Virus record (IMG/VR): IMGVR_UViG_3300044616_000313
Location: 1-36,463 of that record
Direction: 5' to 3' (one strand)
Origin: a virus
Length of the DNA stretch: 36,463 bases
Part shown: positions 6,544 through 36,463 of the stretch, piece by piece
How the letters are laid out: each line of letters opens with the position of its first letter
How positions within the stretch are numbered: the stretch's first letter is position 1
Notes under the pieces: model-generated
Databases searched by the model: none
What the model was told of the DNA's origin: nothing
The model's input: the letters and a program-made list of their open reading frames with translations, nothing else
Program-made: the position numbers and the translations under genes

Positions 6544-7722
6544 ATGAATACCCCTTCGCACCGCGTAACGGACAACGGTAAGACCGTGACCATTCACGGG
6601 CTGGAAGTGTTTTGCGCCTACGATCCTGCGCTGGACGGAGAGTCGGACCCCGAACTGACGAAGTTCGATAACGAGCGCGTGCAGGACATCGTGGAAAGCA
6701 CCCGGCGGTACATGGAGCGCGGGTCGCTTCCCCGGCTGGTGGTCATGCACGAAAAGGACGGGAACGAACCCAAGTCCAGCGTGGGCCGCTTCACGAACAT
6801 CGGGTACGAGGAGCGCGACGGGGTGGGCTTCATCGTGGGCGACTGCGAGGTGGAGAAGCCCGTATTCGACAAGTTGCTGGCGACCAATGCTTTCCCGCGC
6901 CGTAGCGCGGAGATTTGGTCGGAGCAGAATCACCTGTCGGAAGTGGCGTTGCTCGGGCGTGAAACCCCGCGCCGTCCGCTTCCCGACACGCACTTCACCC
7001 GCAAGGGTGAACTGGTCCGGTTCGCACGTTCGCTGCGCTTCGACATGGGGACGGTCGGAGGCGGGCTATCCACTTACGTTCCCGGTACGAAGGACATCAA
7101 CATGGCTGACGATGACATCCGGAAGGAAGTCGCCGCGATGAAGTGCGACATGGACGAAATGAAGTCCATGATGAAGAAGCACTTTGGCGAAGGCAAGGAG
7201 GAGAAGGAGGAGATGGCGGCGGAAGATATGCTCACGGAGCAGTTCGCGGAGGAATCCGGCGAAGGCGACGGCGTGCATATCGACATCGACTCCCACGGTG
7301 GCGAGGAGGAGGAGGAGGAGGAGATGGGTATGTATGCCCGTCCCGGTGCCGCCGACACCTTTGCGCTGCGCCGTGAAAACGCCAAGATGAAGCGCGAACT
7401 GGACTCGCTCAAGGCGGAAATCCGCCGTGAGAAGTTTGGCCGCGAACTGGACATCATGGAGAGCGAGGGTTACCGAATCCCCGCCGCCCAGCGTCCCCGG
7501 CTGATTGCCGAACTTCAGGCGAGCAATGATCCGGCGGGAACGCTGGAGGGTTGGCGGGAACTGTTCACCCGCGATCCCATGAACGTGCGTATCGACATGA
7601 GCCGCGCCGCCCTGCCCAGCAGCACGGACATCAACAAGAACGAAATCTCCAGCATGGTCCGCGAGTTCGCTGGCCGTCCTGAAGAGTTCGCCAAGGCAAT
7701 CAACAGCCGCATCAAGCGGTAA
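6544..7722 (+). CDS. Head maturation protease fused to scaffold (Mu gpI-like layout)
   Basis: The 392-residue protein divides into two parts. Residues 1-165 form a compact domain with ERVQDIVESTRRYMERGSLP, LVVMHEKD and FPRRSAEIWSEQNHLSEVALLG, which resembles the protease half of Mu gpI-type proteins. Residues 187-392 are a highly charged, coiled-coil-like scaffold with a run of glutamates at about 254-260 and long Lys/Glu/Arg helices. The linker (residues 171-184) carries VGGGLSTYVPGTKD, almost the same as the N terminus of the capsid protein encoded downstream. In Mu and lambda the scaffold half is also made alone from an internal start, and such a start exists here at 7102. The product would act inside the procapsid, shaping the shell and then digesting scaffold. 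Protease catalytic residues are not assigned. The gene has its own promoter and probably a leaderless message. Confidence 0.78.
   Translation: MNTPSHRVTDNGKTVTIHGLEVFCAYDPALDGESDPELTKFDNERVQDIVESTRRYMERGSLPRLVVMHEKDGNEPKSSVGRFTNIGYEERDGVGFIVGDCEVEKPVFDKLLATNAFPRRSAEIWSEQNHLSEVALLGRETPRRPLPDTHFTRKGELVRFARSLRFDMGTVGGGLSTYVPGTKDINMADDDIRKEVAAMKCDMDEMKSMMKKHFGEGKEEKEEMAAEDMLTEQFAEESGEGDGVHIDIDSHGGEEEEEEEMGMYARPGAADTFALRRENAKMKRELDSLKAEIRREKFGRELDIMESEGYRIPAAQRPRLIAELQASNDPAGTLEGWRELFTRDPMNVRIDMSRAALPSSTDINKNEISSMVREFAGRPEEFAKAINSRIKR
7102..7722 (+). CDS. Scaffold protein from an internal in-frame start
   Basis: Codon 187 of the protease/scaffold gene is ATG, preceded by GAAGGA with suitable spacing (7089-7094). 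Translation from it would give a 206-residue acidic, helical protein starting MADDDIRKEVAAMK, without the protease domain. This copies the arrangement of Mu gpI/gpZ and lambda C/Nu3, where the scaffold is the nested product. The internal SD is better than anything before the main start, so the scaffold may be the more abundant product. This is inferred from sequence and family precedent. Confidence 0.55.
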   Translation: MADDDIRKEVAAMKCDMDEMKSMMKKHFGEGKEEKEEMAAEDMLTEQFAEESGEGDGVHIDIDSHGGEEEEEEEMGMYARPGAADTFALRRENAKMKRELDSLKAEIRREKFGRELDIMESEGYRIPAAQRPRLIAELQASNDPAGTLEGWRELFTRDPMNVRIDMSRAALPSSTDINKNEISSMVREFAGRPEEFAKAINSRIKR

Positions 7723-8161: not shown

Positions 8162-9199
8162 ATGGCATTCTCTGTTGTCGGTGGTGGACTTTCGACGTAC
8201 ATCCCGTCCACCAATGATCTTGCGACGGGTGCGCTTCAGGTGGAGTTCACCCGAAGCGTCAATTCGTTCGCTCTCACCCGGTACGCGCAGTTGGTTCCCG
8301 TCACGAAGATGACGGGCTACTATCTGCGGCAGGACGTTCCGGACAACGTGCGACTGACGAGCGACCGCGAGTTTGCTTGGCCGCTGGGCAATGACCGCCC
8401 CACGGGTAAGCAGAACTCGTTTGACTTCGTTCAGTACGCCACGCAGCGTTTTGCGTTCCCCTTCTACATCCCGCAGGAGACTGCGACGCAGGCCGCGTGG
8501 GATGTCGTTGCGCAGCACGCTCGCAGCAAGGCGCAGTTGGCGATGACCGCCCGTACGAACCGTGCGGCGGCTATCCTGACCGATACGGGCAACTGGGGCA
8601 GCAACTTCGTTGCGAACCCCACGGCTTCCCCGATTTCGGCTGCGTCGCATTGGAACGGAAGCACGATTGCGAACGCATCCATTCAGACTTCCATTCAGGC
8701 GGTCATGCGGCAGGTGAGCCTGTCGAGCGGCGGCGCGATTGCTCCGAATCAACTCATCATGGTCATTTCTCCGACCGTGGCGAATGTGATTTCGCAGTCT
8801 CCGGAAGTTCGTGAATACGTCCGCAACTACCCCGCCGCCCTTTCGTTCCTTCAGGGTTCGGATACGTTCTCGCGGTGGGGCATTCCCCCGACCCTGTTCG
8901 GGCTGGGCGATGTCGTGGTGGACGATTCGGTGAAGGTGACGAGCAAGAAGGGTGCAACCCTTTCGACTTCGTACATCTACGGCGAGTCGGCCATCTTCGT
9001 GTCGCGTCCGGGTGGACTGGTCGGCGTTGAAGGCGCATCGTCCTTCAGCACGTGCCAAATCTTCGCGTACGAGGACATGACCGTGGAGCAGTTCAACGAT
9101 CCGATGAACCGTCGCATTGAGGGTCGCGTGATCGACAACTCGGTGGCTGCGGTGGTGGCCCCGGTTGGTGGCTATCTGATTCAGGACGTTATCTCCTGA
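8162..9199 (+). CDS. Major capsid protein
   Basis: The 345-residue protein is expected to form the shell in an HK97-like fold. It starts MAFSVVGGGLSTYIPST and continues with a helix-rich N region, a charged stretch around DRPTGKQNSFDF, a long central helix with QAAWDVVAQHARSKAQLAMTARTNRAA and a C-terminal beta region ending GGYLIQDVIS. The size, position after protease/scaffold and decoration genes, and very strong SD (AAGGAGG, 8149-8155) fit an abundant capsid protein. A terminator-like hairpin follows. Residues 6-19 nearly match residues 171-184 of the protease/scaffold protein, which may mark a cleavage or docking signal. Confidence 0.87.
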   Translation: MAFSVVGGGLSTYIPSTNDLATGALQVEFTRSVNSFALTRYAQLVPVTKMTGYYLRQDVPDNVRLTSDREFAWPLGNDRPTGKQNSFDFVQYATQRFAFPFYIPQETATQAAWDVVAQHARSKAQLAMTARTNRAAAILTDTGNWGSNFVANPTASPISAASHWNGSTIANASIQTSIQAVMRQVSLSSGGAIAPNQLIMVISPTVANVISQSPEVREYVRNYPAALSFLQGSDTFSRWGIPPTLFGLGDVVVDDSVKVTSKKGATLSTSYIYGESAIFVSRPGGLVGVEGASSFSTCQIFAYEDMTVEQFNDPMNRRIEGRVIDNSVAAVVAPVGGYLIQDVIS

Positions 9200-27247: not shown

Positions 27248-27612
27248 CTCCCACGGGATGCCCGGTCGGACTGTGCGACGATCAAAGCGCGTGCCGCTTC
27301 TGCGACAACGGGGGACGCAGGTACATGGACGGCGGCGAATTGCAGCGCGTGTGGATGCTCCACGTGAATGCCATGCGCGAGTGCCAACGTGCCGAGGCAC
27401 GCGCACGGACGCTGGATGACGATTGCACGATGTTGGCTCGTCGAAACGCGAAGTTGGTCCTTGAGGTTGACCAACTCCGCGATGAAATATCCGTGCTGCG
27501 TCGGGCGGTTGCGCCGCAACATCTGCAAGCGCAGATTGCCATGCTCACGTACGAGAACGAGCAGTTGCGCCAGCGCAGCCTCAACGCCGCGTTGTACGAG
27601 GGTGAGGGATGA
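27244..27612 (+). CDS. Zinc-ribbon-like plus coiled-coil protein (122 aa)
   Basis: The GTG start overlaps the previous stop (GTGA). The 122-residue product has an N-terminal cysteine cluster (CPVGLCDDQSACRFCDNG; Cys6, Cys11, Cys17, Cys20), which could form a small zinc site. A long coiled coil follows (about 38-115, with RNAKLVLEVDQLRDEISVLRR and LQAQIAMLTYENEQLRQR). It could be an adaptor for replication or transcription proteins, but no family is recognised. It overlaps the RusA gene (ATGA). Confidence 0.62.
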   Translation: MTPTGCPVGLCDDQSACRFCDNGGRRYMDGGELQRVWMLHVNAMRECQRAEARARTLDDDCTMLARRNAKLVLEVDQLRDEISVLRRAVAPQHLQAQIAMLTYENEQLRQRSLNAALYEGEG

Positions 27613-28073
27613 CGGCCAGCGAGTACGTCGTATGGGTCGATGGCGACCCGGCGGCGCAGGGGTCCAAGCGACTGGTGCGCCTGAAGGATGGCCGCAGCGT
27701 GATGCTGGAGAACAGCAAGCGCGTGAAGCCGTGGCGTGCGGCGGTAGCCGATGCCGCCCGCGAGCAGCGCGTGCAGCCGTTTCAAGGCGATGTCATCATC
27801 CATGCACGGGTGCGGTTCGTGCGACCGCAGAAGCACTACCGCAAGGACGGCAGCATCACCCCGTCCGCGTTGCCCCGACCGGGGTACGCCGACTGCGACA
27901 AACTGGCGCGTGCGATTTGTGACGCGCTGGCCGGGATTGCGTATGCCAACGACCGACAGGTGGCCGCGCTTGCCATTGAACGGGAATGGGCATCGGAGGG
28001 TTCCGGCCCCGGCGCGTGCATCCTGATTCGGCCATGCCCGCCAAAGGGCGGCTGGAACTACATAGCCCCCTAG
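27609..28073 (+). CDS. rusA: Holliday junction resolvase, RusA family
   Basis: The 154-residue protein carries the RusA pattern: an N-terminal GDPAAQGSKR, a basic strand region with VKPWRAAV and HARVRFVRPQKHY, then PGYADCDKLARAICDAL with Asp95, Asp97 and Lys98. AYANDRQV with Asp115 follows. In RusA enzymes the conserved aspartates bind metal and the lysine helps cut Holliday junctions symmetrically. Length is close to that of E. coli RusA. It is the last gene of the operon from 25959 and would resolve recombination intermediates before packaging. An ERF annealing gene lies downstream in the same early block. Confidence 0.85.
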   Translation: MTASEYVVWVDGDPAAQGSKRLVRLKDGRSVMLENSKRVKPWRAAVADAAREQRVQPFQGDVIIHARVRFVRPQKHYRKDGSITPSALPRPGYADCDKLARAICDALAGIAYANDRQVAALAIEREWASEGSGPGACILIRPCPPKGGWNYIAP

Positions 28074-28150: not shown

Positions 28151-28225
28151 CCCTAAAAGAAATCTGTGAAATCCATCGGAAATACCCCTCCACCCCCTTG
28201 AACCCCGCCGGAACGGGGGTACAGT
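28151..28225 (+). promoter_or_regulatory. Early promoter with conserved upstream AT-rich element (copy 1)
   Basis: TTGAAC (28198-28203), 16 bases and TACAGT (28220-28225) form the core. The spacer carries CCCCG...CGGGG. From 28151 to 28197 an upstream stretch (AAATCTGTGAAATC, GAAATACCCCTC) is nearly the same as at 32511-32558. It looks like an UP element or activator site. The expected start is G28232. Confidence 0.65.
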
Positions 28226-30652: not shown

Positions 30653-31468
30653 ATGAACCGAAGCGACTCAATCGCAAGCCTTGCCACCGCGCTGGCGAAG
30701 GCGAACTTGGAGATGTCGAACCCCGCGTTCGACAAGAAAAACTCGCACTTCAACAACGGCTACGCATCGCTCGCCGCCGTGCTGAACGCGATCCGGCAAC
30801 CGCTTGCGAAGCAGGGGCTATCGCTGATTCAGACGATCAGCACCGAACCCGGCTCCGTGACCATCACCACAAGCCTGATCCACGCATCCGGCGAATGGCT
30901 GTCGGCTGACGTATCCGTGGCCGTCCCCAACAACGCGACCGCGCAAGCCGTGGGGTCCGCAACGTCGTACATGAGGCGTTACAGCGCGCTGTCGATGTGC
31001 GGCATCGCGGGCGACAACGCCGACGATGACGGCGAGGAGGACCGCCGGGACCGCGAGGAGCGCAAGCCGATGGCCGCGCCGACACGCAGTCAGCGCACAA
31101 CCCGCGCCACCTTTCAACCGGAGAAGGCGCAAGGCGCAGCCCCAGCACCCGCCGCACCCCCGGCACCCCCGGCCCCGGCAAAGGCTGACCGCTTCCCCGA
31201 TGACTTCAACGGCGAAGTGACCGTGCGGCGCGTCACCCGCCGACCCGGACACCCGCACGCCATTCAGGTTGAAAGCGCGGATCACGGCATGGCGTGGGTG
31301 TCCACGAAGGTTGACGGGTACGCCGAGTGCCTAGAGGAAGCCGTGAACGAGAAGCGCATCGTGGAAGTGTGGCGCAACGGCAACGCGCTGGAACTCATCG
31401 CCGTGCGGAACTGCGCGCAGCCCGCACCCACCGGGGAGGAGGTGAACGCCAATGACCTTCCCTTCTAA
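30653..31468 (+). CDS. erf: ERF-family single-strand annealing protein
   Basis: The 271-residue protein has an N-terminal ERF domain (about residues 5-125), with SIASLATALAKANLEM, FNNGYASLAAVLNAIRQPLAKQGLSLIQT and ATSYMRRYSALSMCGIAGDNADDDGEE. ERF proteins anneal single-stranded DNA during phage recombination and genome circularisation. A Pro/Ala-rich linker (about 150-178) leads to a C-terminal beta-rich piece (FNGEVTVRRVTRRPG...NALELIAVRN) that may be an OB-like binding domain; this is inference. The start follows GGAGACACCG of the tandem-hairpin leader. It works with RusA (27609) and probably the PD-(D/E)XK nuclease. Confidence 0.85.
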   Translation: MNRSDSIASLATALAKANLEMSNPAFDKKNSHFNNGYASLAAVLNAIRQPLAKQGLSLIQTISTEPGSVTITTSLIHASGEWLSADVSVAVPNNATAQAVGSATSYMRRYSALSMCGIAGDNADDDGEEDRRDREERKPMAAPTRSQRTTRATFQPEKAQGAAPAPAAPPAPPAPAKADRFPDDFNGEVTVRRVTRRPGHPHAIQVESADHGMAWVSTKVDGYAECLEEAVNEKRIVEVWRNGNALELIAVRNCAQPAPTGEEVNANDLPF

Positions 31469-35656: not shown

Positions 35657-36463
35657 ATGGCCGACATCGACCTGACCCCCACGGAGGAGATGGCATCGAA
35701 TGCCGCCCGTGGGCTGGAACTGCGCGAGAAGCACGGACGCGGCGGAACCGCCGTGGGCGTTGCCCGCGCACGCGACATCAAGAACCGGAAGAACCTGTCC
35801 CCCGACACCGTTCGGCGGATGCACTCGTTCTTTTCGCGTCACGCCGGGAATGAAGCCGGGGGTGAGGATGATGCGGGGTATATCTCGTTCCTGTTGTGGG
35901 GCGGGGCCGCAGGACGATCATGGGCAAAGCGCAAGAGCGCACAACTTGACAAGGACGAAAACGCTATGAGCGACACGCGCAAGGAAATCATGGAACGACT
36001 TGGCAGCGCGGGCAAGGTGAAGTCGGGCCGCGCGGAACAGGTGATGCGCGATGGCACCGTACACCTTGATTTCCGCGCCGCGAAGGAATGGCTGGCGGGC
36101 GTGACGGATTCTGCCCTGCGGTACATCATCAACGATGCACAGCAGGCGGCGAAGGCGATGCCGGATGGGAACAAGTGGAACTACTACCACGATCTTTCGC
36201 TGACAGCGCAAGACGAACTCCAGCGGCGCAAGCGCAAGTCTGCCCGCCCCGGCGCGAAGGCAAAGTTTGGCAATGTAGATCGGCTGGACAGCCTCATGGC
36301 GGCTGTCTACCGAGCCTTGAAGAACAACGACAAGGAAGCCGCGAAGCGGCTCATGGCAGATGCCGCAAAAGAGATCGACAGCAACACCCCGCCATATATG
36401 CTGGCGGAATATAAGGATCTAAAGCGATCTTTCTCCCGCCCCGGCGCGAAGGCGAAGATGGCG
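35657..36463 (+). CDS. Modular RPGAK-repeat protein, 5' part of an origin-spanning gene
   Basis: The ATG at 35657 lies six bases after a -10 hexamer. This part encodes residues 1-226 of the 624-residue joined protein and then repeats the first 127 bases of the window. Residues 1-64 are a basic N-terminal region with MADIDLTPTEEMASNAARGLELREKHG-type sequence, rich in Arg/Lys (ARARDIKNRKNL). Residues 65-103 have a small aromatic segment (YISFLLWGGAAGRSW). Residues 104-193 form a helical domain starting MSDTRKEIMERLG. The first linker, KSARPGAKAKFG, is at 194-205, and a helical module (NVDRLDSLMAAVYRALKNND) follows. An internal ATG at 35966 (MSDTRK) could be a nested start. The gene continues at base 1. 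It is encoded between the large terminase and the portal. Function is unknown. Confidence 0.82.
   Translation, partial: MADIDLTPTEEMASNAARGLELREKHGRGGTAVGVARARDIKNRKNLSPDTVRRMHSFFSRHAGNEAGGEDDAGYISFLLWGGAAGRSWAKRKSAQLDKDENAMSDTRKEIMERLGSAGKVKSGRAEQVMRDGTVHLDFRAAKEWLAGVTDSALRYIINDAQQAAKAMPDGNKWNYYHDLSLTAQDELQRRKRKSARPGAKAKFGNVDRLDSLMAAVYRALKNNDKEAAKRLMADAAKEIDSNTPPYMLAEYKDLKRSFSRPGAKAKMA
36337..36463. repeat. Right copy of the 127-bp terminal direct repeat
   Basis: These 127 bases repeat 1-127 exactly. Removing one copy gives a circle of 36,336 bp. The length suggests an assembler k-mer of 127 rather than a physical terminal repeat. Confidence 0.93.

Follow-up and report, generated by a model that had tools for sequence, protein, structure and literature searches.

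Our analysis of a 36,463-nt viral genome, a single IMG/VR record (IMGVR_UViG_3300044616_000313, here called the window), describes a gene of the head operon in which small, mutually dissimilar protein modules are joined in frame by a linker that is frozen at the DNA level (TCCCGCCCCGGCGCGAAGGC). Comparison with the corresponding genes of related phages makes it very likely that the modules are shuffled as cassettes at this DNA linker inside a single head-operon gene. For the system as a whole, the best explanation, and in our judgement a probable one, is an in-frame module array that is rearranged by crossover at its linkers and that supplies the capsid with replaceable, host-directed proteins. 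In this mechanism, a constant leader, here placed after a helical N-domain of ~100 aa, and a constant tail enclose six small independent domains, and the frozen site of ~20 bp doubles as the peptide linker (S-RPGAK-A-K) and as the crossover point between modules. Comparison of the arrays shows exchange both between phages and between two sites of the head operon, with the phage-encoded ERF annealing protein, together with RusA, presumably acting on short homologies. The leader and N-domain would most likely load the protein into the procapsid lumen for ejection with the DNA, and its modules would be small, exchangeable proteins directed at the host, similar to the internal proteins of T4. The head-maturation protease might conceivably cut the modules apart at the linkers.

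The window begins and ends with the same 127 bases (positions 1–127 and 36,337–36,463), which indicates a circular contig. Once its ends are joined, the array gene becomes a single uninterrupted ORF of 624 aa, which starts with 35,657–36,463 (residues 1–269) and continues at 128–1,195; on the linear contig the 3′ part is found at 1–1,195 (ORF 2–1,195, ending in TGA). The GTG start codon of the portal gene at 1,192 overlaps this stop codon. As the initial annotation had stated, the gene is flanked by those for TerL (phrog_38, E = 4e-67) and for a Mu-type portal (PF06074, E = 9e-48). The same annotation had described a joined protein of 624 residues with five linkers at intervals of 64, 77, 78 and 86 residues, and the joined ORF reproduces these values exactly, with RPGAK at residues 197, 261, 338, 416 and 502.

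All parts of the array are encoded on the plus strand. The protein begins with the N-domain (35,657–35,965; residues 1–103, MADIDLTPTEEM...), which is PHROG 2859-like and predicted to be all-helical (AF2 pLDDT 91), and continues with the leader MSDTRKEIMERLGSAG of the RLG-ending type (35,966–36,013; residues 104–119). Module 0 (36,014–36,241; SGRAEQVMRDG..., family M12) is followed by linker site 1 (36,242–36,261; GCCCGCCCCGGCGCGAAGGC, the consensus with one mismatch), and module 1 (36,262–36,433; NVDRLDSLMAAVYRAL..., family M7) by linker site 2 (98–117, equal to 36,434–36,453 in the duplicated contig end). Module 2 (118–328; KPQFRVRKLHGGYLAV..., family M4), module 3 (349–562; RWTLDASEGWGDLSKQW..., family M0) and module 4 (583–820; APRWEDFFPSEGKGLL..., family M32) alternate with three further linkers placed by the 20-mer scan, namely site 3 (329–348), site 4 (563–582) and site 5 (821–840, one mismatch). 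Module 5 (841–1,040; ADILKVEVMDGSTV...) ends in a sixth, degenerate junction (..VRSNLAKSKNAIREGEK) that precedes the C-terminal tail (1,060–1,192; NAIREGEKVSASDDAVSRKIRKLMDEGKPQKQAVAIALDLERRGEL, PHROG 2423-like). Because this junction is degenerate, the last segment is best read as one module plus the constant tail.

The linkers are conserved as DNA. A scan of the window with the 20-mer TCCCGCCCCGGCGCGAAGGC, allowing up to three mismatches, returned six matches, one of them the duplicated end, whereas 0.02 are expected from dinucleotide shuffles. Near-identical linker DNA had been noted for three copies over about 30 bp; the identity is exact over 31 bp between copies 2 and 3 and copies 2 and 4, and over 36 bp between copies 3 and 4, and the remaining pairs are exactly identical over 18–22 bp. 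The segments between the linkers, in turn, are as unlike each other as had been claimed, with the best BLASTP pair extending over 21 residues (E = 0.003). Across 358 linkers, the commonest codon at each of the five RPGAK positions (CGC-CCC-GGC-GCG-AAG) has an average frequency of 0.96, compared with 0.65–0.81 in equally conserved motifs of the tail and N-domain of the same genes and 0.53 in the leader RLG. Codon agreement between linkers of the same array is 0.94, as against 0.40 for random codons of the same residues. The core is ~20 bp long and near-invariant, with sharp edges and a single orientation, and its 19-mer stands in the SRPGAK frame at 380 of 384 places. Homogenisation by exchange, selection for homology, or both could be the source of this codon freeze.

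Evidence for shuffling comes from phages that share the window's backbone. Nine other phages with flanks ~93–98% identical in nucleotide sequence to those of the window carry different arrays. The block of module 2 recurs in L118 at 99.6% nt identity with both of its edges in linkers, and module 3 in L110 (98.1% nt) and module 1 in L169 (96.0% nt) likewise lie in shared blocks bounded by linkers. Among 651 inner ends of blocks of at least 90% identity, taken from 347 array pairs and non-independent because the arrays are related, 64% lie within a strict linker and 10% within a degenerate one, compared with 19% and 6% of random positions; ~19% were assigned neither to a linker nor to a junction with the leader or tail. 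In the first 88 arrays, the corresponding figures for breakpoints in linkers were 67% against 10% at random. One pair of arrays (L117 and L052) differs by a single clean insertion of 192 bp, equal to one module plus one linker. Together with the frozen linker codons, these observations strongly support the cassette-array reading put forward in the initial annotation, and the comparison of module content in relatives that it called for shows variable order, contrary to the invariant order that would have spoken against it. One array on the window's backbone differs in another manner: in the 636-aa ORF of L174, a long segment, rich in lysine and mostly free of linkers, stands in place of the whole module region; it includes another leader-like stretch and a single linker at the end.

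The array is one of a large family. A search of IMG/VR with a degenerate RPGAKAK pattern, in which third codon positions were left free, found at least 119 stretches, and many of the matches listed have three to seven linkers per ORF at variable spacing. Combining these matches with a protein search and an exact 19-mer scan gave at least 148 array ORFs, at least 104 of them distinct, all on metagenomic contigs. The 104 distinct arrays hold at least 337 inner modules with a median length of 74 aa, which group into at least 161 families, these counts being lower bounds and the number of families varying with the clustering cut-off. The pool appears large and open, since 93 of the 161 families are represented by a single copy and the Chao1 estimate is ~300. 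The commonest family, M0, to which module 3 of the window belongs, occurs 18 times, next to 13 different modules on its left and 12 on its right. In most arrays, a constant leader and a constant tail flank modules in changing order.

All placeable arrays lie inside the head operons of related phages, co-directional with the operon's coding strand, and they occupy two sites. Site A, between TerL and portal as in the window, holds 38 sure and seven likely arrays, and site B, between MuF and the protease/scaffold gene, holds 56 sure and two likely ones; one array is unplaced. Some phages carry arrays at both sites, and 30 of the 68 multi-copy module families occur at both. L110, with its array at site A, and L104, with its array at site B, share a 210-bp M0 module at 100% nucleotide identity, whereas their portals are 98% and 65% identical, respectively, in amino acid sequence to that of the window. 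Similarly, module 3 of the window is 98–99% nt identical to site-B copies in phages with portals ~65% identical in amino acid sequence. Array-like linker clusters were absent from 257 Gb of prokaryotic genome sequence (bacteria and archaea), where 44 stretches with one match each were found in scattered taxa; arrays in cellular genomes were rejected and these lone matches taken as chance. The search of cultured phages returned the N-domain and a few single modules but no phage bearing an array. Module M3 matches a 68-aa ORF of Rhodobacter phages, a CWEGYEAVG..PNCVP motif of modules is also found in cyanophages, and a few modules resemble small genes of unrelated phages. A literature search, which took in few subscription journals and no preprints, found neither phage RPGAK linkers nor such arrays described, and the system is apparently undescribed as well as large.

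The constant ends of the arrays suggest where the protein goes. A leader of type MSDTRKEIMERLG is present in ~80 of 104 arrays, an approximate, pattern-based count that includes arrays with no N-domain, and the C-termini carry a QAVAIALD-type tail in 66 of the 104 and GSSKAKA in six. The N-domain, present in 32 of the 104 arrays and with 45 invariant columns in an alignment of 24 sequences, gave no significant match to solved structures in the PDB. The same domain is fused to other head proteins. It is found at the C-terminus of the portal in L244, L212 and L205, at the N-terminus of 6544-type protease/scaffold proteins in L116, L065, L045, L012 and L221, at the start of the protein annotated as the major capsid protein (MCP) of Roseobacter phage CRP-406, and in a 661-aa protein of Vibrio phage 1.122 encoded between a head morphogenesis protein and the MCP. 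Portal C-termini, scaffolds and N-terminal extensions of the MCP generally face the procapsid interior, and fusion to such proteins points to a lumen-targeting role for the N-domain. The L205 portal also bears the array tail at its C-terminus, which makes the N-domain fusions look like movable head-loading tags. From these fusions and the overlap of the array gene with the portal gene, we put the chance that the array protein is packed in the virion at slightly better than even. It is plausible, as the initial annotation suggested, that the segments are small proteins of the head or are injected. Inside the fusion of N-domain and array, the leader starts at 35,966 with an ATG that has AGGA ~12 nt upstream; this possible alternative start could yield a shorter product lacking the N-domain.

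The protein encoded at 6,544–7,722 (plus strand) in the window, a putative head-maturation protease fused to a scaffold, occupies the position of gpI in Mu. It lies between MuF and MCP, has invariant His69 and Ser121, and ends in an acidic and coiled-coil part resembling a scaffold; the putative assignment derives from this position, the conserved His and Ser, and the scaffold-like architecture. Identification of the protease by profile comparison was dropped as not significant, as hhalign gave a probability of 0.2% against two Mu gpI relatives and scans of the family with Pfam and PHROG matched no protease family. The protease/scaffold (GGGLSTYVPGTKD) and the N-terminus of the MCP (8,162–9,199; GGGLSTYIPSTND) have a motif of ~13 residues in common, perhaps a processing or interaction site.

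Two alternatives to a homology patch concern what the linker is for. The initial annotation had proposed a polyprotein cut at the linkers, possibly by the 6544 protease, and in its fullest form this would make the linkers primarily cleavage sites of a virion polyprotein, with their identity kept for the protease and shuffling as a by-product. This proposal gains from the peptide YARPGAADTFA in the 6544 protein itself (from residue 264, DNA ~7,333–7,365), which is the single linker-like peptide encoded outside the array and lies where the acidic stretch meets the coiled coil, in codons that differ from those of the linker. When the linker profile was run over the window's genes, this peptide scored a PSSM value of 17.8, compared with 3.4 for the next gene and a maximum of 11.5 in 100 shuffled proteomes. 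Close relatives keep a linker-like peptide at this junction (ASRPGKADTFAL or ASRRGAADTFAL), and the linker is predicted to be disordered beside the one folded module. However, a need at the peptide level would not freeze third codon positions, and an array-bearing sub-clade with arrays at site B has the same linkers but a VVAARSTYSL-type scaffold junction with no linker-like peptide. As the scaffold peptide is limited to a sub-clade and the 6544 family has no profile similarity to Mu gpI or any protease family, cleavage of the array at its linkers is possible but, on our reading of the sequences, unlikely, and we think it equally doubtful that cleavage is the linkers' main role. The alternative that the linker is the target of a dedicated, integron-like site-specific recombinase would fit its near-invariant core, its sharp edges, its one orientation and frame, and the gain or loss of a single cassette between L117 and L052. 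Yet among the replication-region genes scanned with Pfam, no integrase (including the tyrosine integrase IntI), invertase or transposase was recognised, and the core has no obvious inverted repeat by eye. The window encodes an ERF-family single-strand annealing protein (30,653–31,468, plus strand; PF04404, E = 1.8e-23) and a RusA-type Holliday-junction resolvase (27,609–28,073, plus strand; PF05866, E = 2.7e-12), which would be enough in principle, and a dedicated recombinase is distinctly improbable. ERF and RusA are plausible candidates for the enzymes of linker exchange, and Erf-type recombinases outdo RecA on short and on diverged homologies in a lambda assay (PMC3945230).

A further alternative accepts the arrays but assigns them another purpose, as an internal protein of the head with a structural or DNA-condensing function, in which module identity is minor and turnover near-neutral. 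The modules could have such a role, being basic on average (net charge +2.8) and joined by linkers rich in Lys and Arg, and the internal proteins of T4 contact DNA (PMC3012670). In contrast, the modules are under purifying selection, with a median dN/dS of 0.15 over 152 pairs from 40 families and no value above 1, which indicates that the sequence of each module matters and makes this alternative quite unlikely. Values this far below 1 also leave no hint of an arms race inside the modules. Few arrays (3 of 104) contain the same family more than once, which would count against interchangeable modules, but 4.8 are expected at random and the two numbers are not significantly different; selection against repeated modules was rejected on this basis. 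Assembly error is the remaining alternative, a chimera at the contig ends or repeats, given that the gene spans the ends and contains near-identical 30-bp repeats. The 127-bp overlap includes unique sequence, and ~100 arrays on independent contigs, many of them complete and away from contig ends, refute this explanation and leave it a negligible chance.

The preferred reading of the modules as host-directed proteins is itself tentative, at somewhat less than even odds. Structure prediction covered the N-domain and one module, M0, which is predicted to form a compact domain of five strands and a helix (mean pLDDT 77) with a disordered adjoining linker. M0 had no significant match in the PDB, where the top hit was an integron cassette protein (E = 0.23), and a BFVD search returned weak matches, mostly to uncharacterised proteins. 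Scans of 70 arrays with Pfam, NCBIfam, PHROG and PADLOC gave nothing informative and no known effector or anti-defence family; within the Pfam results, the best match was DUF7678 in two arrays, and no enzymatic or polyvalent-associated family was found.

The closest working analogue of the arrays is the set of T4-type internal-protein loci (IPI, IPII, IPIII), which are marked by a capsid targeting sequence. To our knowledge, there is no sequence relation between the arrays and these proteins. Repoila and colleagues reportedly found in 1994 that T4-type internal-protein loci vary in number, order and identity, and proposed flanking homologies as drivers of the shuffling. The internal proteins of T4 are small and diverse, have a conserved leader, and are packed and injected with anti-restriction roles (PMC3012670, PMC12373910). 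Like them (mature IPI* has 76 aa), the modules are small, diverse proteins with nothing in common but an N-terminal leader, and they are found at two loci. Unlike T4, which has one gene and one leader per internal protein, the arrays place many modules under one leader, one tail and one frame, and the homology for exchange is the in-frame linker itself. In being multidomain, encoded among virion genes and changing in architecture, the arrays also resemble the polyvalent proteins of phages and conjugative elements, which, according to the predictions of Iyer et al. (2017, PMC5512222), accompany the DNA into the host and may be processed by a peptidase. Polyvalent proteins, however, combine enzymatic and other large domains, of a kind that Pfam found in none of the 70 arrays, and the sections of that account consulted describe no frozen DNA linker. 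The arrays further recall the domain mosaicism surveyed by Smug et al. (2023, PMC10684548), in which otherwise unrelated phage proteins have recently shared domains, a pattern read there as an arms-race signature. The examples given prominence there are receptor-binding proteins, endolysins, neck and replication proteins; in the text searched, the words 'linker', 'internal' and 'ejection' are absent and multi-module arrays with one DNA site go unmentioned.

Integron gene cassettes offer a different parallel, having an open pool, small cassettes, variable order and a conserved recombination site, whereas the array cassettes encode segments of a protein in one reading frame, come with neither a recognised integrase nor an attC-like site, and move from phage to phage. 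On balance we would hold only loosely to the stronger reading that the arrays are a protein-level counterpart of integrons, in which a conserved coding site of ~20 bp would act both in recombination and as the peptide between domains, perhaps also as a cleavage site, and a clade of phages would draw on a common, open pool of ~300 or more small cargo proteins, recombined in frame within a capsid-loaded polyprotein that brings a rapidly changing set of counter-defence or take-over factors into host cells. One gene shows how phages can reassort protein modules with the frame intact and the crossover site serving as the linker. If the modules are injected effectors, the arrays are ready catalogues of uncharacterised phage counter-defence and take-over proteins, which can be searched with a 20-bp probe and in which linkers mark the module boundaries. 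The N-domain, leader and tail, for their part, may form a modular capsid-loading system. Arbiol and colleagues are said to have described in 2010 mobile regulatory cassettes of T4, short repeated DNA elements with a dual function that provide homology for shuffling small genes; those cassettes are intergenic, whereas the array linker is coding and lies inside one gene.

Elsewhere in the window, repeated GC-rich intergenic elements between 28,143 and 33,135 precede small early genes (for example at 28,190, 28,548, 29,734, 30,190, 30,564, 32,551, 32,617 and 33,090). They comprise a 149-nt element present three times, a GCCCCCGGACGGGGC..GAGACA..ATG element present five times and an identical 26-nt hairpin-like element present twice, and are reminiscent of intergenic shuffling cassettes.
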